From the NCBI RefSeq assembly GCF_000828675.1, contig NZ_AP014510.1, positions 2,003,413 through 2,067,412 on the forward strand: a DNA stretch of 64,000 nt, given 5' to 3'. Of this stretch, positions 1,328-38,884 are shown in pieces. The DNA comes from Thermotoga profunda AZM34c06 (GTDB lineage: Bacteria > Thermotogota > Thermotogae > Thermotogales > DSM-5069). A program made the translations under genes and the position numbers. How positions within the stretch are numbered: the stretch's first letter is position 1; every line of letters begins with the position of its first letter. The notes beneath the pieces were generated by a model. It worked only from the letters and a program-made list of their open reading frames with translations. It had not been told where the DNA came from and did no database searches.

Positions 1328-2359
1328 TCATCCATATTTTTTCATGAACAGATTATAGAGTTTTTCATTCTCTCTAACTATTTCTAACGCGAATTCTGCA
1401 TGATCTGTCGCATAACCATTTCCTATTATCATGTCAACATCTTTTCCTATTCCTTCTGCGCCAAGGGCTGCTTTTGTGAAACTCGTTGCCATTGAAAAGA
1501 AATACACTTTACCACGTTCTCTCGTGCACATAACCGAAGTCATCTCTGTGTCTGGTACATTCACGACATTTATCACAACATCGGCGAGTTTTCCATCATT
1601 CACTTTTAAAAATTTCTCATAAGTACCAACGGCATCTTGTGCATCAGCAACGATTATCTTATCTACGACACCGAGTTCTGTTAATTCCTGTATAGAACGT
1701 TCTGAATGTACGAGGCCAATCACCGTACCAGTTGGTCCAGCATACTTCTTTGCAACATAACAACAAAGCACACCAGATTTTCCGCCAGCTCCTATAATCA
1801 ACACAGTATCACCTGGTGAAACCAATCTCGCCGTTTGTATAGGTGCACCAGCTACATCTAAAATCGCAAGGGCAACAGATTCAGGCATATCATCAGGTAA
1901 TTTTGCAAACACACCCGTTTCAAACAATATGGCTTCAGCCTCGACATCAACCTGTTCTTTATCAATGTGAACTTTTGCAATTTTTTTCAGATTCAAAGGT
2001 GTCAAACTCAATGAAACAAGCGTTGCAATCTTATCACCTTCATTTGCATCTATTTTTAGATCCTTTCCAATTTTTTTGATCTTTCCTATCAACATTCCTC
2101 CAGACCCAGTGACTGGATTGTGCATCTTACCCCTTTCTTTAACTATTTGCATGATCTTTTCTGCTATTTTTTTCTCATCTTTACCCACTTCGTTCTTAAT
2201 TTGTGTAAATGATGCTGCATCGATATTCAACTTAATTACATCGATCAAGATTTCGTTATCGTATACTTTTGAGGTATCGTTGTCGACCTTCCAAGCCGGT
2301 TGGGGCAATTTACCCTTAGGCTCTATGACTCTGTGAAGTCCAAAAGGATCACCGCGCAC
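1328..2359 (-). CDS. kdd: L-erythro-3,5-diaminohexanoate dehydrogenase
   Basis: Kdd oxidatively deaminates 3,5-diaminohexanoate to 3-keto-5-aminohexanoate with NAD(P) in lysine fermentation. The 343-residue protein has the family N-terminus (RGDPFGLHRVIEPKG) and a medium-chain-dehydrogenase-like Rossmann motif (IIGAGGKSG, about residues 190-198). Length matches the family. The GTG at 2359 sits 7 nt after GGAGG. Its usual partners (lysine 2,3-aminomutase, beta-lysine 5,6-aminomutase, Kce, Kal) are not in this window, so the gene is separated from the rest of its pathway here. A hairpin terminator separates it from the upstream sugar-binding gene. Confidence 0.85.
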   Translation of the reverse strand: MRGDPFGLHRVIEPKGKLPQPAWKVDNDTSKVYDNEILIDVIKLNIDAASFTQIKNEVGKDEKKIAEKIMQIVKERGKMHNPVTGSGGMLIGKIKKIGKDLKIDANEGDKIATLVSLSLTPLNLKKIAKVHIDKEQVDVEAEAILFETGVFAKLPDDMPESVALAILDVAGAPIQTARLVSPGDTVLIIGAGGKSGVLCCYVAKKYAGPTGTVIGLVHSERSIQELTELGVVDKIIVADAQDAVGTYEKFLKVNDGKLADVVINVVNVPDTEMTSVMCTRERGKVYFFSMATSFTKAALGAEGIGKDVDMIIGNGYATDHAEFALEIVRENEKLYNLFMKKYG

Positions 2360-2402: not shown

Positions 2403-3659
2403 TCATAAGCCTTCTCTCTGAAGTTCCCTTGTGATTTCTTGTTCTGCCCATTTAAGTCCTTCGTCTATTGTCTTCTTGCCGAATAAAACGTCGTTAACCA
2501 TGTTCCCGACAATCGTTCTAATTTCTGCCCAGACACCAAGTTGTGGATCAAAAACACCATTTGGTAACTGTTGAAGTGGGACTTCGGCAGCAGGATCTTC
2601 TGCTACGAATTTTTTCCACAGTTGAGTCTCAGTTGCGCTCTTTCTGACTGGTAAATAACCGGTTTTCGTTGCCCAATAGGCTGTTATATCTGGAGAGATT
2701 AAAAATTTCATGAATTCCCAAGCTGCTTTCTTTTCCTCATCCTTGGCACTGCTGAACATAATCACATCAGTACCTGCAAAAAGTGCATTCTGCGTTTTCC
2801 AAACTGGGAGTGGAGCCCAACTCCAACCATGTTTACCAGCCGAACCACTTGCCACATATGGTTTGCTCGCCACGGTTTCTATAAACATTGCAATCTTACC
2901 CTCGCCAAATGGACCGTCCAAATATCCTCCTTGCACCAATGCGTACTTATCTTTCAGATCGAGCATGAATTGCAAAACCTCTCTTGATTCTTCACTATTG
3001 ATTGTAACCTTCCATTTTCCATCTGAATCTTTTTTGAGAACAGACCCGCCATTCAAAGCAAGGAATACTTGGAAATGATCAACTGTAGAGCGAAAACCAA
3101 AACCATATTGATCAATCGTTCCGTCTCCGTTGAAATCCTCTGTCATAAGAATTGCGGCTTTTTTCAGCTCGCCCATCGTTTCAGGAATCTTTAAACCCGC
3201 TAAGGTCAAAGCATCTGTGTTCACATAAAGAACATAGATACTCTTATTGAATGGTAGTGCATACACAGTTTTGTCCCAAGTGCAGTTGAGCCTCATCGGC
3301 TCCCATATATCGAGCCATTCAGCAGATGTAAAACCAATCTTTGGGTCTGTGATGTATTTATTCAAGGGTTCAACAATGCCAGAGTATATCAACTTCGCTG
3401 TCCAGTTCGAATAGGCTTGCGAAATCGTTGGAAGTCCTCCAGCTTGAGCTGCTGCAAGCAGTTTCTGTTGAAGTGTGCTGTAGTTTCCAATGTAGATTGC
3501 TTCAACTTCGATATCAGGATGCTGCTGATTGAAGAAATTGACTATCTCTTGTAGTGTTTGTCCATGTCCACCACCCATAGCATGCCAGAAGGTAACCTTG
3601 ACTTTGGCAAAACTCAAAATAGCTACACTAAGCAATACAACCAAAAGAAATTTCTTCAT
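2403..3659 (-). CDS. ABC transporter extracellular solute-binding protein (family 1, sugar type)
   Basis: This 418-residue protein captures a sugar or glycerol-phosphate-like solute outside the membrane. It has an N-terminal signal peptide (MKKFLLVVLLSVAILSFA), then the KVTFWHAMGGG start and ALPFNKSIYVLYVNTDAL block typical of UgpB/MalE-like family 1 binding proteins. GTDVIMFSS and KKAAWEFMKFLISPD mark the C-lobe. No cysteine lipobox is present, so it is secreted or anchored by its signal. No permease or ATPase gene is adjacent, so it is an orphan whose transporter must be encoded elsewhere. The substrate cannot be told from sequence. Confidence 0.9.
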   Translation of the reverse strand: MKKFLLVVLLSVAILSFAKVKVTFWHAMGGGHGQTLQEIVNFFNQQHPDIEVEAIYIGNYSTLQQKLLAAAQAGGLPTISQAYSNWTAKLIYSGIVEPLNKYITDPKIGFTSAEWLDIWEPMRLNCTWDKTVYALPFNKSIYVLYVNTDALTLAGLKIPETMGELKKAAILMTEDFNGDGTIDQYGFGFRSTVDHFQVFLALNGGSVLKKDSDGKWKVTINSEESREVLQFMLDLKDKYALVQGGYLDGPFGEGKIAMFIETVASKPYVASGSAGKHGWSWAPLPVWKTQNALFAGTDVIMFSSAKDEEKKAAWEFMKFLISPDITAYWATKTGYLPVRKSATETQLWKKFVAEDPAAEVPLQQLPNGVFDPQLGVWAEIRTIVGNMVNDVLFGKKTIDEGLKWAEQEITRELQREGL

Positions 3660-3682
3660 ACCTACACCTCCCCTGATAGCTG

Positions 3683-4255
3683 TTACATCTTTGATTTTAT
3701 CACCCGATTGTAAAAGCTTTTTATTTTCTCACGCAAAGATGAAAGATCTGAGTCATTGACGATCACATATTCTGTATCTGTTATATCTTCTTGGCAAGCC
3801 AATCTACGGTAAATTTCATCTTCGTTCATGCCTTTTTGTTTGAGCCTTTCAACGGTTTTGTCCATAGGTGCTACAACTGTTATGACAAAATCACACAACT
3901 TTTCTAATTTGAGTCTGTGCAAAATAGCGGCATCTATTACTATTAAGCCAGTGAGCGAGTTGAGCTCTTCAGTGATCTTTTCCCTCATTTTTGGGTGGGT
4001 AATTCGCTCCAAAATGGAGAGTTTCTTGGGATCTGAGAAAACTATTGAAGCTAATTTCTTGCGATCGACATTCACACCATCAAAAATCACTTCACCAAAA
4101 ATCTCTCTCAATGAATTTTTGACTTCTTGATTTTGCAATACTTCATGCCCAATCTTATCGACATCTATTATATGGGCACCAAGTTCCCTAAAGATCTGAG
4201 CAACGGTACTTTTTCCAGATCCAATTTTACCGGTCAAACCGATTATTAACTTCAA
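3683..4255 (-). CDS. coaE: Dephospho-CoA kinase
   Basis: CoaE phosphorylates the 3'-hydroxyl of dephospho-CoA, the last step of CoA synthesis. The 190-residue protein begins with the P-loop GLTGKIGSGKST and has the DVDKIGHEVL block and the CQEDITDTEYVIVND C-terminal block of the family. It starts at TTG 4255, overlapping the preceding stop as TTGA, with GGAG 10 nt upstream. It is the last gene of an apt-pgi-hypothetical-coaE run on the minus strand. Confidence 0.93.
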   Translation of the reverse strand: MKLIIGLTGKIGSGKSTVAQIFRELGAHIIDVDKIGHEVLQNQEVKNSLREIFGEVIFDGVNVDRKKLASIVFSDPKKLSILERITHPKMREKITEELNSLTGLIVIDAAILHRLKLEKLCDFVITVVAPMDKTVERLKQKGMNEDEIYRRLACQEDITDTEYVIVNDSDLSSLREKIKSFYNRVIKSKM

Positions 4256-4470
4256 TACAGTCTTTCTCCTTTTTCCTGCAAGAGAGTTTCAAAACTCTTG
4301 TATTCCTCTCCTGTTAAAACAACCACCGCTATATCTCCGTTGGCTTTTTTATATAACTCAGACATCTTCTTGTTTATATCTTTCGTATCATTCATAACCA
4401 CTACGTATACATCATCCCCAAATGGACTTTCTTTAAGAAAATAAACCATTAGTGGCTGAAATAATTTCAC
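4252..4470 (-). CDS. Small conserved-position protein between pgi and coaE
   Basis: A 72-residue soluble protein of unknown role. GTG 4470 is best placed after a GGAG site (6-nt spacing); a TTG at 4485 overlapping the pgi stop is the alternative. It contains DDVYVVVMND and DIAVVVLTGEEYK strands and may be a minimal alpha/beta fold, but no catalytic motif is visible. It overlaps coaE by 4 nt and follows pgi closely, so translation is coupled. As I recall, Thermotoga maritima has a small protein at the same place between its pgi and coaE genes. Confidence 0.7.
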   Translation of the reverse strand: MKLFQPLMVYFLKESPFGDDVYVVVMNDTKDINKKMSELYKKANGDIAVVVLTGEEYKSFETLLQEKGERLY

Positions 4471-4481
4471 GATATGCTCCG

Positions 4482-5837
4482 TCAATCTATCACAACCTTC
4501 TTAACAGGTTCGGGAAATTTCAGCACTTCAAAACCCTTTCTGCCCATTAGAGAATATGTAATCCTCTTACCAAGTTCTACACCCGGTTGATCGTAAGGAT
4601 TGATCATTAAGAGATCCCCCATCAAAGCAGTTGCAAATTCATAATACATGAAGAATTGACCTATATCATATGCATTTATCGTTGGAAAGATAATTCTCAT
4701 ACTAGGTCTTCCATTTGAAGCCAATGCCCTTTCTGTTCCTGTGAGCTCACTCTTTAGAAGATCTGCGAGTTTCTTTCCACCGAGATAAGATATTTCATCA
4801 TTTTCATGAATGGTTGGAATGAGTATATCTCTATCAAATCTTTCAACTTCAAGGAATGTTATAGTTTTATCGTCTGGTCCCTCATTATAAAGTTGAATCT
4901 GAGAATGTTGATCGACCACACCAAGCGCCTTTATGGGTGTCAAACCCTCATTTACTATTTGCCCATCTAAGGAATATTTCTTTCCCAGACTCTCTGCCCA
5001 AAGTTGTCTAAACCAATCGGCGAGCGAAAAGAGTCTGTTGGAATAAGGCATCATCACACTGATATTTCTACCTTTTTTCTTATGCAAATAATGACACGCT
5101 GCCATCATAGCCGCTGGATTTTTTTCTATATTCAAATCTGCACATTTGAGATACGCATCTTTTGCACCATCGATCAATGCCTTTATATCTACACCACACG
5201 CCATCGCCGGCAGAAGACCCACAGGTGAAAGGACGCTGAACCTTCCTCCAAGATCTTGGGGGATATCCAAAGCCTGTATTTTTTCATTTTTAGCTATTTG
5301 ACGCAACAACCCTTTTCTTGGATCTGTCGTGAATATTATATGTTCAGCCGGGTTCAAGCCTCTGATTTGCAAAAGCCCACGAATTACCTGATAATGTGCA
5401 AGACATTCCGCTGTAGAACCAGACTTTGATATCACATCAAAAAGAGTTTCACGTGGATCGATCTCATCAAGTACTGCAGCTGCTTGATCGGGGTCGACAT
5501 TTTCAAGGAAGAATATTCTCAGATACCCACTTCTCTCCTGCTTGGTCAAATAATTCCAATCTGGTGGTGTCAAAGCATTTGCAAGCGCTACAGCCCCCAG
5601 GCTCGATCCACCTATACCTATAACGACTAAATTGTTGAAAGACAATACCCATTGCCTTATATCTTCAACTGAATCCATATAACTCCTGTCAAAAATGACG
5701 TTGACAAATCCAGGTCTGCTTTTTACAACTCTCTCAACAGATTTTGTAACTTGATCTCTCACAGAAGCGAATTCTTCTTCACTTATACCACCCTTTGTAT
5801 TCGGTTCAAACATGAAACTGAGATCGAATCGAAGCAC
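4482..5837 (-). CDS. pgi: Glucose-6-phosphate isomerase
   Basis: Interconverts glucose 6-phosphate and fructose 6-phosphate in glycolysis. The 451-residue length fits the short bacterial form. Visible family blocks are VVIGIGGSSLGA, DVISKSGSTAE (phosphate-binding SIS loop), PQDLGGRFSVLSPVGLLPA (the GGR signature), and QLWAESLGKKYS with the catalytic Glu region. The gene starts at GTG 5837, 5 nt after a G-rich site. It is preceded by apt with a 12-nt gap and appears to be read from the apt promoter. Confidence 0.96.
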   Translation of the reverse strand: MLRFDLSFMFEPNTKGGISEEEFASVRDQVTKSVERVVKSRPGFVNVIFDRSYMDSVEDIRQWVLSFNNLVVIGIGGSSLGAVALANALTPPDWNYLTKQERSGYLRIFFLENVDPDQAAAVLDEIDPRETLFDVISKSGSTAECLAHYQVIRGLLQIRGLNPAEHIIFTTDPRKGLLRQIAKNEKIQALDIPQDLGGRFSVLSPVGLLPAMACGVDIKALIDGAKDAYLKCADLNIEKNPAAMMAACHYLHKKKGRNISVMMPYSNRLFSLADWFRQLWAESLGKKYSLDGQIVNEGLTPIKALGVVDQHSQIQLYNEGPDDKTITFLEVERFDRDILIPTIHENDEISYLGGKKLADLLKSELTGTERALASNGRPSMRIIFPTINAYDIGQFFMYYEFATALMGDLLMINPYDQPGVELGKRITYSLMGRKGFEVLKFPEPVKKVVID

Positions 5838-5849
5838 GATATCCCCCCC

Positions 5850-6362
5850 TCAATAGGAGATGACTGTCTTAACTGGATACTCGGTGAGCTTTTTTCTTGG
5901 CTCAAGATATGTCAATTCTATCAGAAAACACATACCTACAACATCTCCACCAGATCGCTGAACAAGTCTTGCAATCGCACTGGCTGTGCCACCTGTTGCC
6001 AAAACATCATCCACAACAATGACTCTCTGTCCACTTTGAATAGCATCTGAATGCATTTGAAGCTGTGCTGTACCGTATTCAAGATCATATTCTATAGAGG
6101 TTGTTTCATAAGGCAATTTTCCTGGTTTTCTGATTGGTACAAAACCTTTCTGAAGTTTATATGCAAGCGCTGCACCAAAGATAAACCCTCTTGCTTCAGG
6201 AGAAACTATCAGATCAAAGTCCCAATCGAGAATAGTTTTTGCCATCTCATCAACTGCCGTGTGAAATGCCTTTGGGTTTTTGAGTAAAGGCGTGACATCC
6301 CTGAAAATGATACCTTCAATGGGAAAATCTGGGATATCTCTTATGAAATTCCTCAGATCCAT
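5850..6362 (-). CDS. apt: Adenine phosphoribosyltransferase
   Basis: Salvages adenine to AMP with PRPP. The 170-residue protein has the type I PRTase PRPP motif [14 protein letters not shown] and the family's N-terminal [20 protein letters not shown] and [13 protein letters not shown] blocks. Length is normal. It is the first gene of the apt-pgi-hyp-coaE unit and has its own near-consensus promoter just upstream. Confidence 0.96.
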
Positions 6363-6401
6363 CTTTTCACCGTCCTTTTTAGAAAAAAATCACACAGGTA
6401 C

Positions 6402-6430
6402 ATTTTAACAAACAAGAGGGTGATTTTCAA
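6402..6430 (-). promoter_or_regulatory. Sigma-70-type promoter for apt-pgi-coaE
   Basis: On the minus strand, TTGAAA (6430-6425) and TAAAAT (6407-6402) are separated by exactly 17 bp. They lie 40 bp upstream of the apt start and downstream of the rpmB terminator, which is where an independent promoter is needed. Confidence 0.7.
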
Positions 6431-6445
6431 CAAAAGAGGAGAAAA

Positions 6446-6470
6446 TCAAAAAGCGCGGATGGCTCCGCGC
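6446..6470 (-). terminator. Intrinsic terminator after rpmB
   Basis: GCGCGGA/TCCGCGC, a 7-bp GC-rich stem with a 4-nt loop, starts just after the rpmB stop. On the minus strand it is followed by TTTTTGATTTT. Confidence 0.85.
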
Positions 6471-6471
6471 G

Positions 6472-6672
6472 TTATACTGCTGCTACTTTTTTAACCTTAC
6501 CTGCCTTTAAGCACTTTGTGCAAACTTTCATCGTTTTAATACTTCCATCATCCATCACAACCCGAACTTTTTGAAGATTGGGCCTGAACATCCTTGGAGT
6601 ATGTCTGTTTGAATGACTCACATTCTTACCAGCTACGGGCTCTTTACCACATATTTCACATCTCTTTGCCAT
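6472..6672 (-). CDS. rpmB: 50S ribosomal protein L28
   Basis: L28 is a small protein of the large ribosomal subunit. The 66 residues begin [21 protein letters not shown], the standard start, and run through RPNLQKVRV. Two CxxC pairs (CEIC near residue 5, CTKC near residue 52) indicate the zinc-binding form. It is transcribed alone, from its own promoter to its own terminator. Confidence 0.97.
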
Positions 6673-6704
6673 CTTGCATACCCCTTTCCAAATCTATCCA
6701 AATA

Positions 6705-6733
6705 ATATTATCAGAACTCTCAAAGAATTTCAA
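6705..6733 (-). promoter_or_regulatory. Sigma-70-type promoter for rpmB
   Basis: On the minus strand TTGAAA (6733-6728, overlapping the rnhB stop) and TAATAT (6710-6705) have 17-bp spacing. The -10 box lies about 32 bp upstream of the rpmB start codon. Confidence 0.65.
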
Positions 6734-7413
6734 GTTTTCACACTCGATGAAACAATCTTTTCAAGTACAATCCTAAATCTTCGAGAATCAGGATATGCCA
6801 AAAGAAACTCTTTAACGCGTTCAAAGTTTAGCAATGACAAAACAGGTGAAAAAGTGAGCCGATGAAAAACTGTTGGTCCAAGTAGTTTTAAACTATCGAT
6901 ATGACACTTCGTTGCGTAACCTTTGTGTTTTGAAAATCCATAACCTGGATAGATTTTGTCGTAAGCGTTCATAATCCTGTCACGTACTACCTTCGCAACA
7001 ATTGATGCGGCAGCTATAGACGCACTTTTTGTGTCACCCTTAACAATACAAGTACCTTGCATGGAAAGTTTCAAAGATTTTCCATCAATCAACACAAAAC
7101 CATCCTCGTTGAGCATCTTCAGTGCTCTGTTCATTGCTAATCTTGTGGCATTCAAAATATTGTACAAATCGATCTCTTCGACTGAGGCAAGTCCTATTCC
7201 AACTTGCGAAGTCTTCATTATTTGTTCAAAAAGTTCTTCTCTCTTTTTTGGTGTGAGTTGTTTGGAATCAAAGACATTCAACTTGTCGTGCAACACAACT
7301 GCAGCAGCTACAACAGGACCCGCAAGACAACCTCTTCCTGCCTCATCAACACCTATGATGTTTTTAAAAGTCTTTTTATAGAAATCATCGAATTCAAAAA
7401 GTTCATCTCTCAT
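6730..7413 (-). CDS. rnhB: Ribonuclease HII
   Basis: RNase HII cuts RNA in RNA/DNA hybrids and removes single ribonucleotides. The 227-residue protein has the GVDEAGRGCLAGPVVAAAVVL block with the catalytic D and E, DSKQLTPKKR, and the ASIVAKVVRDRIM block with the catalytic D. The GYGFSKHKGY motif is also present. It overlaps the upstream ATP-grasp gene by 11 nt, so it appears to be the last member of the opine dehydrogenase-like operon, probably by position rather than function. Confidence 0.96.
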   Translation of the reverse strand: MRDELFEFDDFYKKTFKNIIGVDEAGRGCLAGPVVAAAVVLHDKLNVFDSKQLTPKKREELFEQIMKTSQVGIGLASVEEIDLYNILNATRLAMNRALKMLNEDGFVLIDGKSLKLSMQGTCIVKGDTKSASIAAASIVAKVVRDRIMNAYDKIYPGYGFSKHKGYATKCHIDSLKLLGPTVFHRLTFSPVLSLLNFERVKEFLLAYPDSRRFRIVLEKIVSSSVKT

Positions 7414-8326
7414 GATACCTCAAAGCGTCCTCAAATATTTTTAAGATCAAATCATCATAAGAATATCCCGCTGCCTGCGCCATCTTGATGATATCAGAAT
7501 AATTCGGTGTTAACATGGGAAGTGAATTAACTTCAAGAAAATATATATCGTTTTCCTTCACTCTCAGATCCATTCTCGCATAATTTCTAAGACCTAAAAC
7601 CTCAAATGCCTTTAAAGCATAATCTTTGATCTTTCTCTCTAAATCTTCATCGATTTGTGCAGGACATACATATCTTGTATGATCACCATATTCGTGCTTG
7701 ACTCTATAGGAATAGAACCTTTCCAACCCATCTGGCAACGTGGAGAAATCTATTTCTAAAATCGGCAGAACCTCACCTGCCAGTATACCCACGCTGAACT
7801 CTCTTCCATCTATGAATTGCTCCACAAGTGCCGGTTGTTTGAATCGTGTGTGTATATCTCTGACCTTTCTCACCAATGAATCATAATCTCGAACAACGGA
7901 ATCCGCATCTAACCCTTTCGCACTCCCTTCACACGATGGTTTTACAATAGCTGGATAAAATTGAATCTCTGGCACTTGTTCTTTGATATCTACACTTATA
8001 AACGATGCTGTTGGTATACCATAGTATGAAAGAATTATCTTTGTTTTGACCTTGTCTATACAGATGGCATGCGCTTGTGAAGTAGAACCAGTGTACGGTA
8101 TCTTCAGAAGTTCGAGTATTACTGGAACGTGAATTTGTTTTGAAGCAGTTGACAAATTAAAAACCGCATCGAACATAACTATTTTTTCAAAAAGATTATC
8201 CTCAAATGCAATCAGTTGCACTTGATATCTCTTCGAGAGTACATTATAAACCGATTGAATCATCAGTTCTCTTGCTTCATCGAGATTTGATTTGTCATAC
8301 ACCACAGCGACTTTCAATCGATTCAA
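7403..8326 (-). CDS. Ddl-like ATP-grasp ligase of unknown substrate
   Basis: The 307-residue ATP-grasp protein resembles D-alanine--D-alanine ligase: KPSCEGSAKGL and EQFIDGREFSVGIL in the ATP-grasp core, and MDLRVKENDIYFLEVN at the Mg-binding end. It lacks the Ddl N-terminal GGxSxEhxVS motif. The loop that in Ddl reads NTSPGMTxHS reads NSLPMLTPNYS here, so the acceptor site differs. I infer a ligase that activates some amino acid, not the cell-wall Ddl. It overlaps the B12-protein gene by 4 nt and sits in an operon with an opine-dehydrogenase-like protein. Confidence 0.8.
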   Translation of the reverse strand: MNRLKVAVVYDKSNLDEARELMIQSVYNVLSKRYQVQLIAFEDNLFEKIVMFDAVFNLSTASKQIHVPVILELLKIPYTGSTSQAHAICIDKVKTKIILSYYGIPTASFISVDIKEQVPEIQFYPAIVKPSCEGSAKGLDADSVVRDYDSLVRKVRDIHTRFKQPALVEQFIDGREFSVGILAGEVLPILEIDFSTLPDGLERFYSYRVKHEYGDHTRYVCPAQIDEDLERKIKDYALKAFEVLGLRNYARMDLRVKENDIYFLEVNSLPMLTPNYSDIIKMAQAAGYSYDDLILKIFEDALRYHER

Positions 8327-9948
8327 CCTCCTAAGATATGCTTCAATCTGTTTTTCTCTGAAATGATATTTCCATAATCGTCAACACATCTGCAAAGACC
8401 ATCTATGATCTGAGTCTTCACCTGTCCTTTTGCTACAGAGAATCCTTTTAATGCCGGTGCATCGAGTATACCAATCTGCACAGACTTATACAAAACTTCG
8501 GGATCGAGTAAATCTTCATCTTTACCATCTTTTAAATCTTTTATCGCCTTTATAATCATCATCGCTTCATCCTTGATTCTGTCTTTTTCATCTCTGACCC
8601 ATTTATCTTTTAATGGATCCGGCATACCTCTAATAGCGATATTTATAGACCGTTTTGACATCTTCACGCTTTCTATGATTTCTTTTGATGTAGCCCTTCT
8701 CATCGATTCACAATAAGCAACAACATGAATGATATGCGGTTCAATGTACCAGCCATAGAACATCGAAACACTGAGTTGTCCCATGGCTGCATAGGGATCG
8801 GCAGGCACCGACATTAAACCCGTTCTGATCATTCTGTAGACTCTAAAGCTGTCATCTTGAAGTGACTCAACTATCTCTTTTTTTGCAATCATCTTTGCAA
8901 TATCACCCTTTGGAGAAAGTCCATTTGGAGTTTCGAGCATGAACTGTTGAACATAATCGCTCACTCCAAGCTTTTTTGCTGCGAAGGCTGCCAAATAAGC
9001 CGTAGCTACTTCCACTGCATCATGACACACCCTCAAAGCCCATTGATGTGAATCTGTGACTTCAACTGGTACACTGTTTTGCGCATTCCATTTGATTCCT
9101 TCGATATTTTCCTTGATCGCCTCCAGCAATGGTCTATTCGATCTCCTGTCCAAATCGCTGTACCACATGAGCGGTATGGCTGCCCAGGCATTGTTGATAG
9201 TCTCTTTCAAGAGTTTTGAGAATTCTACCATGTGGGTTGTGCCCGCATAACACCTGACTAAGGGATAATTGCCACGCCTTGTTGCTTGATACAATCTGAC
9301 AAAGTCTTCACGAGTTCTTATTGGAACCCCACCAGCACCATCTTGTGAACGATCCATTTTCTCTGGTTCAAAAAAATACTGCTGACAATTTTGATCTGGT
9401 GCAATAGAAATAATGTCCAGGAGTTCTGATTCAGCGAGTTTTTCAATTTCTCTAATAGTTTCTTCAAGCGTCTGTAACCCTATGTGATGTCTGACCAGAG
9501 GAAATGGTGCTTTGAACTCTATTCTTTCTCTGAGAGTCTGTGGAAATCTTTGAAGATGTTTCTCTTCTCTTACCTTGCCCCTTAGAAACATAACTATCTC
9601 ATCGAGTTCTTCTGTTCCATCGAAAGCTCTTTTGATAAAAGAAAATTGCCTTGCTTGTTGAGCTGTTTCAACAGTTCCACCAAACACATAAGTTTTCTCA
9701 GTGAGTTTGTGCTTGTTGATCAGATCTTCAAATTGGTTCAAGAGATTTTTCAGAGACTCCGCACCCAATCTGTAACTCATCGCTATTAGATCTGGATCAT
9801 TTAGTTCTATCTGTTCAACGAGTCTTTCAACTGGTATTGCTGCACCAATATAAACCACTTCATAACCATTTTCTTTGGCGATCTTCAAAAAATTCAACAG
9901 ACCAACGTTGTGAACACAGCTTCCTATGGAGGCACCTAAGATTTTCAT
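8323..9948 (-). CDS. B12-dependent mutase-like protein: B12-binding domain fused to a glutamate-mutase E-like barrel
   Basis: The 541-residue protein starts with a B12-binding fold (about residues 1-120) that aligns with the glutamate mutase S subunit: LGASIGSCVHNVG, SYRLGAE and VFGGT. The axial-ligand His is kept, but the Asp of DxHxxG is Cys here. The remaining 400 residues resemble a mutase TIM barrel (SIAPDQNCQQYFFEP, GGVPIRTRED, RCYAGTTHM, ADPYAAMGQLSVSMF), distantly like the MutE/GlmE subunit. A carbon-skeleton or amino-group rearrangement is therefore likely, but the substrate is unknown. It overlaps both neighbours by 4 nt. Confidence 0.8.
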   Translation of the reverse strand: MKILGASIGSCVHNVGLLNFLKIAKENGYEVVYIGAAIPVERLVEQIELNDPDLIAMSYRLGAESLKNLLNQFEDLINKHKLTEKTYVFGGTVETAQQARQFSFIKRAFDGTEELDEIVMFLRGKVREEKHLQRFPQTLRERIEFKAPFPLVRHHIGLQTLEETIREIEKLAESELLDIISIAPDQNCQQYFFEPEKMDRSQDGAGGVPIRTREDFVRLYQATRRGNYPLVRCYAGTTHMVEFSKLLKETINNAWAAIPLMWYSDLDRRSNRPLLEAIKENIEGIKWNAQNSVPVEVTDSHQWALRVCHDAVEVATAYLAAFAAKKLGVSDYVQQFMLETPNGLSPKGDIAKMIAKKEIVESLQDDSFRVYRMIRTGLMSVPADPYAAMGQLSVSMFYGWYIEPHIIHVVAYCESMRRATSKEIIESVKMSKRSINIAIRGMPDPLKDKWVRDEKDRIKDEAMMIIKAIKDLKDGKDEDLLDPEVLYKSVQIGILDAPALKGFSVAKGQVKTQIIDGLCRCVDDYGNIISEKNRLKHILGG

Positions 9949-11024
9949 TCACCCACCTCCATTATGCGTTTTATCTGTTCAACCGATTTTCCTTCAAGGT
10001 GGAGTCTTTCAAAATTTCTACCTTCTTTGAAAAAATCAGTTCCCATCATCAAAGAAGCAAGCTGAATTATTGAATCGATGATAGGAGTTTTCACATTCAC
10101 AACTTTTGCAAAAGCAGAGATTGGGACAAGACTTGTAGGAACGTCTTCGAGAATATACCTGTTTTCTAAACTCGTGGGCGCTTGAATTCCTCTGTATCCT
10201 TCGTTGTTGTGTATCGCATCGTATAGATTTGAACCTCTCACATCGTACGCATAACTAAGCCACTGAACGGCCGTCATCGGTTCTATACCAAATTTTCTTG
10301 CAACTTGACAGCGCTCATCGTCGATTGCTTCGAGTACTTTTGCCACAGACTGACTGATACCCTCGAAATAGAATTCAAATTTTCCAAAAGTCGACTCTAC
10401 CCATCCTGTGTTCAATATGATTGTTGCCGGATGAAAAACCGCACCGATGTTGTTAAAACTCGTGTATAGAGTATTTGGTGCGATCTCAAATTCTGTCATC
10501 ACTTTTAAAAGAGTTTTTTCAAGATCACTATTTTTTCTGGACGGTAACGCGGCTACTGGTACGGCGTTCTTTATTCTGAATATTCGTACAACTCCTGGGT
10601 TTGATGCGCGTGATGCAAATACAAAAGTTTGTGCCTCTGCTATAACGATATCCTTTTTGACATTCTCTTCCTTTAATGTGTTGTAGAATTCAAGTGCACC
10701 CGCTGTTCTACCAGGATTTAAAACCACAATCTGTCCGTCTTCAAGATAGGGTGCCATTTTTTTGGCAATCTCTCTATGTGCAAAGGCAGGCAATACTACC
10801 ATCAACAATTGACGATCTTTCATCGCTTCTTGAAGTTGTGTAGTTGCAAAGGAAATCTGTGCAACCGCATTGATCTCTCCTTCAACCTTGATTTTATTGG
10901 TCTTCATGATAGGTGCTATTCTCCACGCGCTACGATTGTACAAAGAAACATCAAAACCCTTTAAAGCGAGATATGCGGCCAATGCTTGTCCACCATTTCC
11001 AGCACCAATTACGCATATTTTCAT
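9945..11024 (-). CDS. Octopine/nopaline dehydrogenase-family oxidoreductase
   Basis: Opine dehydrogenases condense an amino acid with an alpha-keto acid using NAD(P)H, or act in reverse. The 359-residue protein begins MKICVIGAGNGGQALAAYLA, a Rossmann GxGxxG motif, and has HPATIILNTGWVES with the putative catalytic His of the family and the helical C-terminal domain. ATG 11024 is preceded by AGGAGG at 8-nt spacing; a longer frame to 11057 has no good site. It is the first gene of a four-gene overlapping run (with B12 protein, ATP-grasp and rnhB). Confidence 0.82.
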   Translation of the reverse strand: MKICVIGAGNGGQALAAYLALKGFDVSLYNRSAWRIAPIMKTNKIKVEGEINAVAQISFATTQLQEAMKDRQLLMVVLPAFAHREIAKKMAPYLEDGQIVVLNPGRTAGALEFYNTLKEENVKKDIVIAEAQTFVFASRASNPGVVRIFRIKNAVPVAALPSRKNSDLEKTLLKVMTEFEIAPNTLYTSFNNIGAVFHPATIILNTGWVESTFGKFEFYFEGISQSVAKVLEAIDDERCQVARKFGIEPMTAVQWLSYAYDVRGSNLYDAIHNNEGYRGIQAPTSLENRYILEDVPTSLVPISAFAKVVNVKTPIIDSIIQLASLMMGTDFFKEGRNFERLHLEGKSVEQIKRIMEVGE

Positions 11025-11231
11025 TACAATACCTCCTATCCGTTGATCAAAATTCACGCGAATTTTAGAGCTTGAGAATACATCTTTTCTTTTATTTTAT
11101 CATCATATTTCAAAAATGTCAAATCACGATTCTTCATTACACTGACCGTTTTGTATTAATATAACTTAATTATAGTTATCTTTATAAGGCATCATCTACC
11201 CTTAATATGTATAATTCAAATTGAGGTGAAG

Positions 11232-11732
11232 GTGATACACAAATCGGCTGTTTGCGTGCCAATCTTTTTCATTGATAATGAACCTTACCTGATTCTCATA
11301 AGAAGATCTCGAAAACTCAGGCGCCATCCGGGACAAATAAGCTTTCCCGGAGGTTTCATCGAAAAAGGCGAAAGTGCACTCCAAGCAGCAGTTAGAGAGA
11401 TGCAAGAAGAAATAGGTGTAAAAGACAATTGCTTTGTTGTCCTTGGTAAATTGTCCTGTACAGTAACGGTAACCTCTTCTGTGGAGATAACACCATTTTT
11501 GGTTGTTATCAATTGTGGAGAATTTCATCTAAACAAAGATGAAGTTGAAGAGATATACTTTGTATCGCTCGAGTTGTTTAAAAACACAAAATGTGTCAAG
11601 ATTGTAATGCCGAATGGTAATGTGACCTGTCGTTACTCTCTGCGTGAATTAGTCGTTTGGGGTGCTACAGCGAGAATCATAAATAAATCACTCTCACAAA
11701 TAGAACAAATGTTAAAAGAGGTGAAAAAATGA
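11232..11732 (+). CDS. Nudix hydrolase, CoA-pyrophosphatase-like
   Basis: Nudix enzymes hydrolyse nucleoside-diphosphate derivatives. The 166-residue protein carries a full Nudix box (GGFIEKGE through REMQEEIGV) preceded by RKLRRHPGQISFPGG, the signature of the CoA/NudL-type subgroup. A CoA pyrophosphatase role is therefore likely but not proven. GTG 11232 is favoured because GAGGTGA lies just upstream; GTG 11226 falls within that site. It overlaps folP by ATGA and is probably co-transcribed with it. Confidence 0.88.
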   Translation: MIHKSAVCVPIFFIDNEPYLILIRRSRKLRRHPGQISFPGGFIEKGESALQAAVREMQEEIGVKDNCFVVLGKLSCTVTVTSSVEITPFLVVINCGEFHLNKDEVEEIYFVSLELFKNTKCVKIVMPNGNVTCRYSLRELVVWGATARIINKSLSQIEQMLKEVKK

Positions 11733-30130: not shown

Positions 30131-30422
30131 TCTCCTCACTCCTGGGGTTTTCAATTTAAGATTTTATCATTATCTTTTTTGCCTTTGTTTTTCTTTTAGG
30201 TAAATTTGGTTTCGCACTTGCTGCTTTAAAAAATCGCCATACGAATCTCTGAAAACAACTGACTATGATATAATGTAATTGCAAAATAATGTTTTTGATA
30301 TTTTCTATGGCTATTGTATGGTGAGGCAAATTTCATCACAAGAGATTGAGAGAAGATCAATTTGCTGATTTCATGTTCCAAAAATAATCTGATTTGATTT
30401 TATTGGCAAGGAGGGATTGGTA
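30131..30422. promoter_or_regulatory. Divergent intergenic region between the pyr and ggt operons
   Basis: This A+T-rich stretch holds the start signals of both divergent units. On the plus strand TGATATAAT at 30266-30274 is an extended -10 box without a clear -35, a weak candidate promoter for the ggt unit. I found no convincing pyr promoter on the minus strand, no PyrR-type binding loop and no recognisable riboswitch. Confidence 0.4.
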
Positions 30423-32144
30423 ATGAAGAAGTTTGTATCAATACTTTTCTTATTAGGAATCAGCATCTCAATTTTGGCAGTTTCAACAGGCCAGATCATG
30501 CTCTCAAAGAATGGTGTTGTTGCCGCCGCAAATCCTTACGCTGCTGCAGCAGGAGCAGAAATTTTGGAAAAGGGTGGTAATGCAGTAGATGCCGCAGTAG
30601 CAGTTGCTTTTGCATTAGGTGTTGTGGAACCATATGCAAGTGGTCTTGGTGGAGAAGGTGTTATGATCATTCATACATCTGATGGTCAAAATATAGCTAT
30701 TGATTACAAATCTGTCGCTCCAATGGATCTCTCCAAGTATACAAAATCTCCAAGCAATTATTCGTCAGGACCACTTTCAGTTTGTGTTCCAGGAGTAGTT
30801 GATGGTTTGATTAAGGCACTTTCAGAGTGGGGAACAATGAATCTCAGCGAAGTCATGGAACCCGCAATTCGTTTGGCAAGAGAAGGTTTTGTTTTGAACG
30901 AAACTTATGTTGGTGTCTTATCTGATAATTATGAAAAACTTCTAAATGATCCTGGCGAAGGCGCCTTGGTATACTTAAAAGACAATCTTCTTTACGATCC
31001 AGGAGATTTATTCAAAAATCCCGTCTTGGCAGATACACTCGAATTGATTGCAAAAGAGGGTAGAGATGTTTTCTACAAGGGAGAAATAGCCGATAAGATA
31101 GTCAAATTTATGCAAGAGAATGGCGGAGCAATAACCAAACAAGATCTCGAACAATACCATGCAATTGTTAAAGAACCTATTATTGGAACTTATAGAGGAT
31201 ACAAAATAATCACTGCACCACAACCCGTTGGTGGCACTACTCTTGTTGAAATACTCAACATACTTGAAAGATTCAACATCTCTGATCTTTCATGGGACGA
31301 TCCACTTTACATCCATTTACTCTCCGAGGCTTTATATCTGGCTACTATCGATATGAGGATTTACTGTGGTGACGATCCCAATGTTCCTGTCGAAGCTTTG
31401 ATCAGCAAAGAATATGCAAAAAGCAGATTTGAAATGATACCCCTTTCAAAGGCGATAGCAAGATCAAGTAGTGCCGCCGAACGTCAGAAACTGGCTGGAG
31501 ATCCTTTCAAATATCTTGACAACAAGAAGTTTTTTGACAAAATCTTGGAAGACCTTGGAGAGAAAGTAAAAATCGAGAGTCCATCGACAACTCACGCCAG
31601 TGTAGTCGATAAATGGGGAAATGCGGTCGCATTTACTCAAACACTCAGTTCTTTCTTTGGATCAGGTAACGTTGTACCTGGAACAGGTATAATTCTCAAC
31701 AACGAGATGGCGAATTTCTCAACATCTGGGCCTAATGCACTTGCTCCAGGTAGAAGACCCCGCACCACAATAGCTCCCACAATCGTCTTGAGACCAAATG
31801 GAGATCTTTTAATGGTCGTTGGCACCCCTGGCGCATCAAGAATTCTTTCGACATTATCTCAAATGATAGTCAACGTTATAGATTTCGGCTATTCAATTGA
31901 TCAGGCTATGAAGCTTCCGAAGTTCTGTTCATATGATACTTACACAGACTTAAAGATCGAAGGAGGATTCCCCGAAGAAACGATTAAAATTCTTGAAAAA
32001 TATTATGGTTATAAACTCGAATTGTATCCCGAACTTGATCTTTTCTTCGGTGGTCCAAATTGTGTTTATAAACAAGAAGATGGTATTTACATAGGTGTCG
32101 GATCATTTAGAAGACAAGGTGCTGCAGCGGTACCAGAAAAGTGA
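30423..32144 (+). CDS. Secreted gamma-glutamyltransferase-family hydrolase, possible poly-gamma-glutamate depolymerase
   Basis: The 573-residue GGT-fold precursor has a signal peptide (KKFVSILFLLGISISILA), EKGGNAVDAAVAVAFALGVVEP, LAREGF, and the autoprocessing site PSTTHASVVD with catalytic Thr near residue 389. GSGNVVPGTGIILNNEM and PGRRPRTTIAPTIV follow. Two residues that bind the free glutamyl end in E. coli GGT are changed: Arg114 aligns with Lys, and Asp433 with Asn (NNEMANFS). That suggests a substrate other than glutathione. Next to pgsBC, cleavage of poly-gamma-glutamate is inferred. AAGGAGGG precedes ATG 30423. Confidence 0.88.
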   Translation: MKKFVSILFLLGISISILAVSTGQIMLSKNGVVAAANPYAAAAGAEILEKGGNAVDAAVAVAFALGVVEPYASGLGGEGVMIIHTSDGQNIAIDYKSVAPMDLSKYTKSPSNYSSGPLSVCVPGVVDGLIKALSEWGTMNLSEVMEPAIRLAREGFVLNETYVGVLSDNYEKLLNDPGEGALVYLKDNLLYDPGDLFKNPVLADTLELIAKEGRDVFYKGEIADKIVKFMQENGGAITKQDLEQYHAIVKEPIIGTYRGYKIITAPQPVGGTTLVEILNILERFNISDLSWDDPLYIHLLSEALYLATIDMRIYCGDDPNVPVEALISKEYAKSRFEMIPLSKAIARSSSAAERQKLAGDPFKYLDNKKFFDKILEDLGEKVKIESPSTTHASVVDKWGNAVAFTQTLSSFFGSGNVVPGTGIILNNEMANFSTSGPNALAPGRRPRTTIAPTIVLRPNGDLLMVVGTPGASRILSTLSQMIVNVIDFGYSIDQAMKLPKFCSYDTYTDLKIEGGFPEETIKILEKYYGYKLELYPELDLFFGGPNCVYKQEDGIYIGVGSFRRQGAAAVPEK

Positions 32145-32153
32145 GGGATAATC

Positions 32154-32705
32154 GTGAGAAAATATCTTTTGGCATTGTTAATTTTGCTGACCTTATCCAT
32201 TACCTTTGCTCAAGAATTGGTCTTCCAACAACCAGTACTTATAACTTCTGCTGGTCAGAGCGCAGGTGTCACAATGATGAAGGTCTTGGCAACCAGAGCT
32301 AAACTCCAATTCAATTTCGATGCACTTGCTAAGCCAGAGGCATTGACTGGTAATTTTAAATCACTCATCATAGTTGTTGGAGCAAGTTCTAAAGGACTTG
32401 GTGCGGCGGGAATAGATATAGAGCAAGAAATTCAAAGAGTGACAGAACTTTTGAACAAAGCCAAAGAAATCGGCTTAAAGGTTATAGTAGCTCATATTGA
32501 AGGTCAATCAAGACGTGGAAAAACAAGCGACCAATTGAGTGAACTTGTTATACCGTTTGCCGATCTTGTGATTGTCACAAAAGCCGGAAACGAAGACAAC
32601 TTCTTCACAAATCTTTGCGAAAAACAGCAAAAGAAATTAATCGTTGTCGAAACAACAAGTGCTGTCCAAAGTATCTTGGAGCAATATTTCAAGGCTGGTG
32701 AGTGA
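32154..32705 (+). CDS. Exported protein resembling the DUF6305 family
   Basis: The 183-residue protein has an N-terminal signal sequence (LLALLILLTLSITFA) and a Rossmann-like alpha/beta domain: LITSAGQSAGVTMMKVL, FKSLIIVVGASSKGLG, VIVAHIEGQSRRGKTSDQL and FADLVIVTK. I believe it corresponds to DUF6305, whose function is unknown. GTG 32154 follows GAGGGAT. It lies between the GGT-family gene and the first M14 deacylase gene with gaps of less than 10 nt, so it belongs to the same unit. A role in handling glutamate polymers outside the cell is inference. Confidence 0.65.
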   Translation: MRKYLLALLILLTLSITFAQELVFQQPVLITSAGQSAGVTMMKVLATRAKLQFNFDALAKPEALTGNFKSLIIVVGASSKGLGAAGIDIEQEIQRVTELLNKAKEIGLKVIVAHIEGQSRRGKTSDQLSELVIPFADLVIVTKAGNEDNFFTNLCEKQQKKLIVVETTSAVQSILEQYFKAGE

Positions 32706-32707
32706 TC

Positions 32708-33745
32708 GTGCTAAAAACAAATCTGACTGTTGTTCTCTTAGTAAGTGTTGCGATGCTCTGCATCGCAGCACCTCTTTTCCATGATGTGAGACCAGGCTAT
32801 GGTGTAACCCAAATAAAGTGGTTGAGTGACTATCATCCTTCTTTGAGAGGTACTTGGGGCGATACAAGAATTTATATTCTTGAAGGTGAGGAACCTGGTG
32901 CGAATGTACTGTTGCTTTCAGGTACACACACAAATGAAATCGCTGGAATATTCACTTCCTTAGTTTTCATCGAAAAATCTCTGGTAAAAAAAGGCAGACT
33001 GTTTGTTGTGCCTTGGGCAAACAACAGCGCAGCCACCTGGGGAAGTGTTTCATATGATAAACCAGAAGAAACTATGACCTCTCCTGCTTACATAAACTTT
33101 GTAACACTCAGTGGCCCAAGAAACGTTGTTGTTGGCTCAAGAAGAACAAATCCATTTCATCAAGAGACTGATCCAGCTACTTACACTCACCTTTCTGGAT
33201 TGGAATTCCCTGGATATGAAGCACGAAATCTGGACAGAGTTCATCCAGGCAGAGCCGATGGAACCTTAACAGAACAGATCAGTTTTGCTCTATTCGAGCT
33301 TGTTCGAAAGGAAAAAATAGACATGGTTGTCGATCTTCATGAAGCTGGAACTTCTTCAAGGCTTGCAAACATGTTGATATGTAACCCAAAGAACCTGGAT
33401 ATGGGTGCCATGGTTGTATTAGATCTTGAATTCGAAGGTTTTCAGATAAAACTTGAGCAATCAAGTGAGGAATTCAGAGGACTGAGCCACAGGGAATTTG
33501 GAGATCATACAGATGCACTTGCCTTCTTAATAGAAACGCCCAATCCTTCTCAGGACACAAATGCAAAATCTGCTTATACTTTGGACCACCCTGAATTCCC
33601 ACTCTGGAAAAGAGTATATACGCACTTTAGGACTTTTCTGATGTTATGTGAATACTTGGACGACTTTATAGGACGTAGTATCATCTTTGAAGGACTCCCT
33701 GAGCGAGATACATTTGAAAACAATTTTTTCATGATCTATAACTGA
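32708..33745 (+). CDS. Exported M14-type zinc deacylase/carboxypeptidase, copy 1
   Basis: The 345-residue protein has an N-terminal signal segment and a succinylglutamate desuccinylase/aspartoacylase-like catalytic fold. Zinc-ligand motifs are SGTHTNEIAG (H and E) and VVDLHEAG (H); AFLIETPNPSQ carries the putative catalytic Glu. Family members cut N-acyl amino acids or amide bonds with a terminal carboxylate, which fits gamma-linked glutamate products. Start is GTG 32708 or the overlapping GTG 32702. A related protein is encoded at 35.3 kb in the same unit. Confidence 0.8.
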   Translation: MLKTNLTVVLLVSVAMLCIAAPLFHDVRPGYGVTQIKWLSDYHPSLRGTWGDTRIYILEGEEPGANVLLLSGTHTNEIAGIFTSLVFIEKSLVKKGRLFVVPWANNSAATWGSVSYDKPEETMTSPAYINFVTLSGPRNVVVGSRRTNPFHQETDPATYTHLSGLEFPGYEARNLDRVHPGRADGTLTEQISFALFELVRKEKIDMVVDLHEAGTSSRLANMLICNPKNLDMGAMVVLDLEFEGFQIKLEQSSEEFRGLSHREFGDHTDALAFLIETPNPSQDTNAKSAYTLDHPEFPLWKRVYTHFRTFLMLCEYLDDFIGRSIIFEGLPERDTFENNFFMIYN

Positions 33746-33765
33746 ATAAAGGAGAGGGCTCAACA

Positions 33766-35088
33766 TTGGAAATTGTACTCTTTTTGATTATTATAACTGC
33801 CTTCTTGATCCTGACATTTTTGAAATTTCCAAAGGGAGTTTCTTTTTTACTGATTTCAACGATAGTACTACTGTTGAGTGAGAAAAAATTTGACATTCAT
33901 GTTTTAATAGAAGGTGCCTTTGGCTATTTTGATGCCGTAATAACAGTACTATCAGCCATGATATTCGTTGTCGCAATAGAAAGGTCAGGATTGCTAAGTC
34001 ATTTTGCGAATATTTTGACAAAAAAATTCTCTTCAAAGCCAAAGTTGCTCTTACTGTTCACTACACTTCTTGCCATGAGTGGAGGAATGATAACGGGTTC
34101 ATCATCGGCTTGTATACTTACTACCGGTGCTGTGGCCTTCCCAATCCTCAAATCCATAGGTTTAAACAATAAAAAATCAGGAACTATCATAGCAATATCG
34201 TCAGTACTTGGTATGATCGCACCACCGGTGAATATCCAAGCTATGGTGATTTGTGAAGGAGTAGACATGCCTTATGTTGGATTCACCTATCCCCTACTTT
34301 GGCTCACAGTTCCAACGGCACTTTTGGTGTCTCTTACGATCGCAGGAAAAGACATCCAAAAACCAAAAATCAAAGAGAATATGCAATTCAAAACTAAAGA
34401 TGTCATTCTATATCTTCCTTTAATGGTTCTTGTAGCTCTTTTGATCTTGGACAGTTTCGAAATTTTTCAGTTAGGTCTTGTATTGATTTTCTTTGTGAGT
34501 GCAATCATAGCTATTTTATGTGGAAAAAGAAAATCCAGTTTTGTTGAAGTTTCGTTGAATGCTATGGAACAATCTCTACCGATCTTGGCAATACTTGTTG
34601 GTGTTGGCATGTTGATTCAAGTAATGACCCTCAGTGGTGTTAGAGGATTAATAGTCGCAAGTATGCTTTTCTTCCCTTATAGCATATTGTTCTTGACATT
34701 AGGACTTGGGGTACCAATGTTTGGTGCAGTTTCATCCTATGGTGCTGCTTCTGTACTTGGAATACCATTTCTTCTGGCATTTCGTGGAGGTAATGACATT
34801 TTGATAACCTCTGCGATATCCTTGCTTGCAGGACTCGGTGACATGTTACCTCCGACGGCATTGGCAAGTACTGTGAGTGCTCAGATCGTGGGTTTAGATT
34901 CCTATGTCCAGATCCTTAAAAAATCAATTCCATTTATTATAGTAATTGGTGTGGTGTCTGTCATAGTAACAATGTATTCTTTCAAACTTGTTAAAGTGCT
35001 CAGTAATCCATGGTGGTTTTTGGGAATTGTTGGTGCAATATTTGTCGCTTGCATTTTTGACGATGTGATATTCAAAAGGAGGAAGTGA
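33766..35088 (+). CDS. DctM-like (TRAP large subunit type) membrane transporter
   Basis: The 440-residue protein has about 11-12 hydrophobic helices and family-like segments ITGSSSACILTTGAVAFPIL, VLGMIAPPVNIQAMVICEG and GLGDMLPPTALASTV, with the two-repeat pattern of TRAP/IT-superfamily permeases. No DctP binding protein or DctQ small subunit is encoded nearby. Import of glutamate or small gamma-glutamyl products released by the neighbouring exoenzymes is inferred. TTG 33766 follows GGAGAGG. A tiny membrane-protein gene follows directly. Confidence 0.8.
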   Translation: MEIVLFLIIITAFLILTFLKFPKGVSFLLISTIVLLLSEKKFDIHVLIEGAFGYFDAVITVLSAMIFVVAIERSGLLSHFANILTKKFSSKPKLLLLFTTLLAMSGGMITGSSSACILTTGAVAFPILKSIGLNNKKSGTIIAISSVLGMIAPPVNIQAMVICEGVDMPYVGFTYPLLWLTVPTALLVSLTIAGKDIQKPKIKENMQFKTKDVILYLPLMVLVALLILDSFEIFQLGLVLIFFVSAIIAILCGKRKSSFVEVSLNAMEQSLPILAILVGVGMLIQVMTLSGVRGLIVASMLFFPYSILFLTLGLGVPMFGAVSSYGAASVLGIPFLLAFRGGNDILITSAISLLAGLGDMLPPTALASTVSAQIVGLDSYVQILKKSIPFIIVIGVVSVIVTMYSFKLVKVLSNPWWFLGIVGAIFVACIFDDVIFKRRK

Positions 35089-35092
35089 TGCC

Positions 35093-35239
35093 TTGATTAC
35101 CTATATCTACATAGCAATACTTATTTATTTTTCAATGATTTTGGTGAAATTGGTTTTGAAAAAACCAGACAACTGGAATTGGTTAATGGCCGCAATGGTC
35201 TTGACACCCTGGGCATTGAGAATATTCTTGATCAAGTGA
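35093..35239 (+). CDS. 48-residue membrane protein after the DctM-like gene
   Basis: TTG 35093 has GGAGG 10 nt upstream. The protein has one N-terminal hydrophobic helix (YIYIAILIYFSMILVKLVL), a short KKPDNWNW link, and a second hydrophobic run (LMAAMVLTPWALRIFL). It sits 4 nt after the permease gene and 11 nt before the second M14 gene. The tight packing suggests a real gene and possibly a small subunit of the permease. I do not recognise the sequence. Confidence 0.6.
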   Translation: MITYIYIAILIYFSMILVKLVLKKPDNWNWLMAAMVLTPWALRIFLIK

Positions 35240-35250
35240 GAGGTAGTTAG

Positions 35251-36327: not shown

Positions 36328-36328
36328 C

Positions 36329-37288: not shown

Positions 37289-37710
37289 AATACCAGCATG
37301 ACCACCAATCTTATAGTTACAGAGACCGCACACACAGAAATGAGAGTTATGAAAATGCCTTGACGTTCCATAGTATTTGCTAACAATCCTGGTATAACCC
37401 AACCAATAGTTTGTAGTTCAATCGGTTGTAGACCAGCTAAAGGAACAAATTTTCTAAAAAGCAATGTAAAGAAGGTAGACAAAAGTATCATCAATATGAA
37501 ACGCCTTCTTGTGTACAAAAATAAATGCCTACGTAGTACTTTGTAAACTAAAAGGCAAGCAAATGAAATCAATGTTGTACACAGTATTCTATATGGCTGA
37601 TCTACGTAAAAAGAGAGCCAGACCGGCACAATAATTCCACCAGGATAAAGACCTGTTAATTCCACAAAAAAAGTTGAAATGAGAATACCTATAGCTGCGA
37701 TTTCAAACAT
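37285..37710 (-). CDS. pgsC: Poly-gamma-glutamate synthase subunit PgsC
   Basis: PgsC is the small membrane subunit that forms the polymerase with PgsB. The 141-residue protein is almost entirely hydrophobic with about four to five helices and carries the family's N-terminal pattern (ELTGLYPGGIIVPVWLSFYVDQP) and GLQPIELQTIGWVIPGLLANTM near residue 105. Length agrees with B. subtilis PgsC (149). It overlaps the pgsB gene by 22 nt and the PgsW-like gene by 4 nt. Confidence 0.9.
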   Translation of the reverse strand: MFEIAAIGILISTFFVELTGLYPGGIIVPVWLSFYVDQPYRILCTTLISFACLLVYKVLRRHLFLYTRRRFILMILLSTFFTLLFRKFVPLAGLQPIELQTIGWVIPGLLANTMERQGIFITLISVCAVSVTIRLVVMLVL

Positions 37711-38840: not shown

Positions 38841-38884
38841 ATTCGATCTCCTCACAAATAAAAGCACCTTTACAAACCCGGATC

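Follow-up and report, generated by a model that had tools for sequence, protein, structure and literature searches.

Three enzymes are encoded together in an operon of Thermotoga profunda AZM34c06: ODH, an opine-dehydrogenase-like NAD(P) enzyme; MUT, a B12 mutase in a single chain; and LIG, an ATP-grasp ligase of the Ddl-like kind. On balance we believe that their product is a compatible solute, opine-like and bearing an amide, that serves against osmotic or cation stress. The basis for this reading is the linkage of the genes in bacteria and archaea, the families and folds of their products, the catalytic residues these products have kept and lost, a third enzyme that is interchangeable between LIG and a relative of asparagine synthetase B (AsnB), and riboswitch control.

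The window is the whole stretch of DNA analyzed, 64,000 nucleotides of contig NZ_AP014510.1, and the three genes lie on its minus strand. ODH occupies 9945..11024 and encodes 359 residues from an in-frame ATG (to 11024); this start, which has a good ribosome site, is more likely than the alternative GTG at 11057. MUT (8323..9948, 541 residues) was assigned from Pfam domain PF02310 and an AlphaFold2 model, and LIG (7403..8326, 307 residues from a TTG start) from PF07478. ODH overlaps MUT, and MUT overlaps LIG, by 4 nt each, which bears out the proposal of an earlier sequence-only reading of this DNA that the three overlapping genes form one operon. LIG in turn overlaps by 11 nt a downstream ribonuclease HII gene (6730..7413, minus strand; 3.1e-69 to the NCBIfam ribonuclease HII equivalogs). 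That gene adjoins LIG in one further locus (L033) and in no other mapped locus with a table inspected, and is probably a passenger. Elsewhere in the window, at 30417-38888, inspection of the list of open reading frames by eye found gamma-glutamyltransferase-, succinylglutamate-desuccinylase-, and PgsB/PgsC-like (poly-gamma-glutamate synthesis) genes.

Of the 101 Thermotogota genomes searched, 61 have a full-length MUT. Among the best 30 Thermotogota loci, ODH adjoins MUT in every one, so the grouping is not due to chance, and LIG is also adjacent in 20. A wider genome scan found 308 relatives, from which 79 distinct bacterial and archaeal loci were kept; carriers include Thermoanaerobacter, Bacteroidales, Ignavibacteria, Thorarchaeota, Theionarchaea, Methanomicrobia, and Planctomycetota. 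ODH lies beside MUT in 76 of these 79 loci; as for the remainder, MUT sits at a contig end in two (L105, L114) and L076 is without ODH. The commonest spacing among 71 ODH-MUT pairs measured is the 4-nt overlap, and gene orders vary (ODH-MUT-LIG, LIG-ODH-MUT, ODH-LIG-MUT2). Genomes G006 and G097 carry, inside an ODH/LIG operon, a distant mutase paralogue of 633-634 residues in place of MUT (L049, 7925-9829; L050, 3640-5541). Locus L109 has two tandem ODH-MUT copies at 2432-9761, each with its own c-di-AMP riboswitch, and LIG in between. The grouping, which the sequence-only reading proposed to look for in other genomes, is thus conserved far beyond the window. That reading would be refuted if the trio were not conserved together; ODH and MUT stay side by side, but LIG is often replaced by an AsnB relative and MUT sometimes by a paralogue.

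That the grouping is already in print was missed by the sequence-only reading. Zhang et al. 2009 (PMC2667541) predicted a B12-dependent family in 11 bacteria, always beside an octopine/nopaline dehydrogenase. Several of these bacteria have a gene for D-Ala-D-Ala ligase or for asparagine synthase close by, and Thermotogae are among the carriers; the passage that describes the family gives it no function. The present analysis goes beyond that description in the archaea and many more phyla, the riboswitch control, a signature for the AsnB subfamily, the missing PLP lysine and the fold of the mutase, and its replacement by a paralogue. As far as our literature search showed, three points are new here: the connection to osmotic stress, the subfamily of AsnB, and the occurrence in archaea, although the riboswitch link to the operon may already exist in print.

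MUT begins with a B12 domain (residues 1 to about 127; PF02310, 9.7e-13), after which comes a TIM barrel (about 134-537) whose Pfam MutE match is sub-threshold. Its AlphaFold2 model, built with 48 sequences, has a pLDDT of 93.4, and the best fold match is the E chain of glutamate mutase (Foldseek 1cb7_B, 4.6e-17; VIA Z 33.4, rmsd 2.8, 373 aligned); second closest is lysine 5,6-aminomutase (VIA Z 32.1). The DxHxxG motif retains His and Gly in 48 of 48 sequences, the His being the cobalt ligand; its first position is mostly Cys (41 sequences) and otherwise Asp (7). MUT therefore shares with glutamate mutase (MutS + MutE) the barrel fold and a B12 domain with the cobalt-ligand His, but differs in that glutamate mutase has separate S (B12) and E chains whereas MUT is one chain with the B12 domain first, in the Cys that mostly replaces the motif Asp, and in a window sequence that falls under the MutE Pfam cut-off. 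The own genome has no MutE above that cut-off, and a mutase fusion that has no separate partner subunit, as first proposed, is what the single 541-residue chain amounts to. An hhalign alignment of MUT to E. coli MutE was too weak to place the arginine claw.

In OraE and KamE we take the PLP lysine to be the residue 8 positions after the DxHxxG glycine. At this site MUT has Ala in 45 of 48 sequences, Cys in 3, and Lys in none, which rules out a PLP-dependent aminomutase of the OraE or KamDE type. By its sequence, MUT fits a PLP-free adenosylcobalamin (AdoCbl) carbon-skeleton mutase rather than an aminomutase.

The near fold relatives of MUT, namely glutamate mutase and the ornithine and lysine aminomutases, would also suit an amino-acid fermentation or salvage route that runs in the breakdown direction, as would a lysine-fermentation gene 5 kb off in the window, that for L-erythro-3,5-diaminohexanoate dehydrogenase (KDD; 1328-2359, minus strand; NCBIfam 271 bits, cut-off 200). 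We consider such a route very improbable: MUT is without the PLP lysine, an ATP-consuming ligase or AsnB would be expensive for a catabolic path, and no catabolic partner recurs beside the trio in the loci viewed. The dehydrogenase gene is followed by a DUF3855-like gene at 783-1331, and no further lysine-fermentation gene was recognized among the neighboring genes read in locus L032.

ODH matches Pfam Octopine_DH (PF02317) at 1.7e-48 (164.9 bits, cut-off 30) and is homologous over its full length to N-(1-D-carboxylethyl)-L-norvaline dehydrogenase (PDB 1bg6, E 2.8e-76). H209, R300, and D305, which we take to be the active-site residues of opine dehydrogenases, are kept in all 91 aligned ODHs, and are common to this family, 1bg6, and octopine dehydrogenase. 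What sets the family apart is Arg117, present in 90 of 91; the printed alignment places an Ala there in 1bg6.

LIG matches Pfam Dala_Dala_lig_C (PF07478) at 6.9e-34 and the Ddl of PDB entry 5d8d at E 6.1e-34. K129, E169, E176, R251, D253, E265, and N267 are kept in at least 90% of 30 LIGs, and the conserved Lys, Glu, Arg/Asp, and Glu/Asn presumably form the ATP/Mg site of an ATP-grasp enzyme. It scores below every curated NCBIfam Ddl cut-off shown (best 175.8 against 243 bits), which rules out a true D-Ala-D-Ala ligase and agrees with the suggestion that LIG departs from an ordinary Ddl; the own genome has two further Ddl-family genes, both of which score strongly. Unlinked LIG orthologues occur in five Thermotogota genomes (G047, G091, G029, G085, G045). 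None was found in four of the five f9 Thermotogota genomes searched (G062, G074, G066, G068), and in G060 the nearest LIG relative stands at only 39%. The own genome also has, near 506 kb and away from the operon, a LIG paralogue of 349 residues and 40% identity (L209, 9605-10654, minus strand), which by eye adjoins a CoA-binding-like protein and a tripartite-tricarboxylate-like transporter.

LIG takes the third place in 20 of the 79 loci and an AsnB relative in 36; no locus has both, and 23 have neither. The AsnB relatives share the ATP-pyrophosphatase core of asparagine synthetase B, with SGGxDS kept in all, but 29 of the 35 clustered have lost the glutaminase cysteine. Thirty-four, one partial protein being left out, were aligned to E. 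coli AsnB (script numbering, Cys = 1). K449, Y357, R387, and the SGGxDS residues S234, G235, and D238 are kept in 34 of 34, and E348 in 33. In contrast, T322 is Leu and D384 is lost in every one, whereas five canonical AsnB controls, taken from searched genomes, all have D384 and have T322 in four cases and Ser in one. We take T322 and D384 to be aspartate-site residues of asparagine synthetase, and their absence from all 34 rules out a true asparagine synthetase. The operon AsnB relative is, as judged by these residues, a distinct subfamily whose substrate is probably a carboxylate that resembles aspartate without being aspartate; an N-substituted one would be in keeping with the loss of D384. 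Among 18 genomes without an adjacent third gene, operon-type AsnB lies elsewhere in three (G104, G106, G128, where the unlinked copies bear the operon signature), only canonical AsnB was found in five, and ten have none at E 1e-25. Because 23 of 79 loci have no adjacent third gene and only three of these 18 genomes carry operon-type AsnB elsewhere, the third step is common rather than universal.

Some loci hold additional genes near the third one. In two Theionarchaea loci (L056, L072) a NAD-synthetase-like (NadE-like) gene at about 9610-11339 lies between MUT and LIG and overlaps both; it may be an ordinary NAD synthetase. In an archaeal metagenome-assembled genome (L063), MUT and the AsnB relative are separated by a D-glutamate-cyclase-like gene (6989-8074; PF14336, 233 bits). 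In four differently titled groups (L094, L096, L112, L122), a MarC-family membrane protein, called by a Pfam run on L122 only, is encoded downstream of the AsnB relative and is possibly a transporter.

An Rfam scan covered 60 of the 79 loci. The c-di-AMP riboswitch RF00379 gave 11 matches, all directly upstream of the operon and on its strand, at ten loci (L057, L059, L062, L070, L075, L081, L106, L109 twice, L128, L130), with scores of 79-117 bits against a cut-off of 38. Of 17 Bacillota-titled loci scanned, 14 include ODH and extend 300 nt or more upstream (L076 was left out for having no ODH, L083 and L088 for being cut), and the riboswitch is found at ten of these; the scan of L060, L086, L098, and L107 gave no RF00379 aptamer upstream. 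It heads ODH-MUT-AsnB, ODH-MUT-LIG, and LIG-ODH-MUT operons alike. Genome-wide, RF00379 is sparse, with three copies in T. wiegelii, five in Thermoanaerobacterium, two in G124, and eight in G125 (two of them at its two operons), while the operon copy is the sole one in G123, G126, and G127. Of the remaining copies in this set of genomes, two stand ahead of TrkH-type cation transporter genes, and others precede genes for secreted proteins that are LysM- or SLH-like, as judged by eye from the N-termini. Locus L080 has nhaA-I riboswitches (44.2 and 45.7 bits, cut-off 37) upstream of an ODH-MUT-CBS-antiporter operon and of the AsnB gene. An MscS channel gene is a neighbor in L085, L101, and L125, and a Na+/H+ antiporter in L078 and L080; the osmotic neighbors in Bacteroidota are syntenic and therefore not independent evidence. 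Published work connects c-di-AMP riboswitches with the synthesis of osmoprotectants and with osmotic shock (PMC9337991, PMC7288161), and the nhaA-I motif is described as sensing Li+ (PMC9646797). The riboswitch context of the operon thus points to osmotic-stress metabolism. No copy of RF00379 was found in the genome of the window, and no cis-regulatory Rfam match in the window or in four Thermotogota loci scanned, so the carry-over of an osmotic role to Thermotogota rests on homology to the riboswitch-controlled Bacillota, whose purpose the Thermotogota operons would share.

In an osmotically evolved strain of Thermoanaerobacterium, the asparagine synthase Tsac_2392 was reported to rise 47-fold by RNA-seq and 122-fold by qPCR (PMC5577258). 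We do not equate it with the operon-type AsnB. Its neighbor Tsac_2391 is a penicillin-binding protein, and no such gene adjoins the operon-type AsnB in three genomes of Thermoanaerobacterium, nor the other AsnB in the single genome inspected for it.

Genes of the cell wall are also under c-di-AMP riboswitches, and other copies of RF00379 precede the LysM- and SLH-like proteins; since Ddl is moreover the closest relative of LIG, the product might instead enter the cell envelope as a modified cross-link or stem-peptide amino acid. This we think unlikely, because the operons occur in Thorarchaeota, Theionarchaea, and Methanomicrobia, archaea that lack bacterial peptidoglycan, because LIG is replaced by AsnB, because cation riboswitches stand at L080, and because no Mur genes recur beside the trio in the loci viewed.

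For the favored product, a compatible solute, we infer all the substrates, the order of steps, and the compound itself. MUT would rearrange an amino acid resembling glutamate to a branched form, the simplest such reaction being glutamate to 3-methylaspartate. ODH would couple the amino group with a 2-oxo acid in a reductive step that yields a secondary amine of the opine type, and LIG or the AsnB relative would activate a carboxylate with ATP to form an amide, a step that would lower the negative charge and yield a less acidic solute. The exact path from glutamate through 3-methylaspartate and N-alkylation with a 2-oxo acid to the amide is unlikely to be right in every particular. The order of rearranging, condensing, and ligating proposed from the sequence is compatible with the chemistry of the families, but rearrangement has to be narrowed to the carbon skeleton, not the amino group, because the PLP lysine is absent.

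The PylBCD enzymes of pyrrolysine biosynthesis likewise comprise a mutase, an ATP-grasp ligase, and a dehydrogenase, and so offer the same three kinds of reaction; opine dehydrogenases, in turn, make metallophores in other bacteria. The trio could accordingly act as PylB, PylC, and PylD do and produce an amino acid that carries a ring, or a chelator of the opine type. We regard this as distinctly improbable, since PylB is a radical SAM mutase and no radical SAM domain is among the Pfam matches of the trio, where the mutase is B12-dependent; the dehydrogenase family also differs, no exporter or metal-uptake gene recurs in the loci viewed, and regulation looks osmotic. In the osmolyte routes to N-epsilon-acetyl-beta-lysine and beta-glutamate, a mutase similarly makes an unusual amino acid for osmoprotection. 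The aminomutases of those routes are radical SAM enzymes, whereas here there would be an AdoCbl carbon-skeleton mutase, an opine step, and an amide step. An ablA gene is under a Na+/c-di-AMP tandem riboswitch (PMC9337991).

It is also possible, though less likely than not, that ODH and MUT with LIG or the AsnB relative constitute the first known compatible-solute pathway to need adenosylcobalamin, and that its products, amidated opines of a methyl-branched amino acid, are a new osmolyte class common to Thermotogota, Bacillota, Bacteroidota, and archaea, with the last step filled by two unrelated amide-forming enzymes. A B12-dependent family that has stood in print as an orphan since 2009 gains a testable role, and the riboswitch would name the inducing condition for the operon. 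If the proposal is true, many anaerobes would depend on vitamin B12 for osmoprotection, their tolerance of salt would be linked with B12 supply, and the chemistry of a new group of stress solutes would be there to work out.
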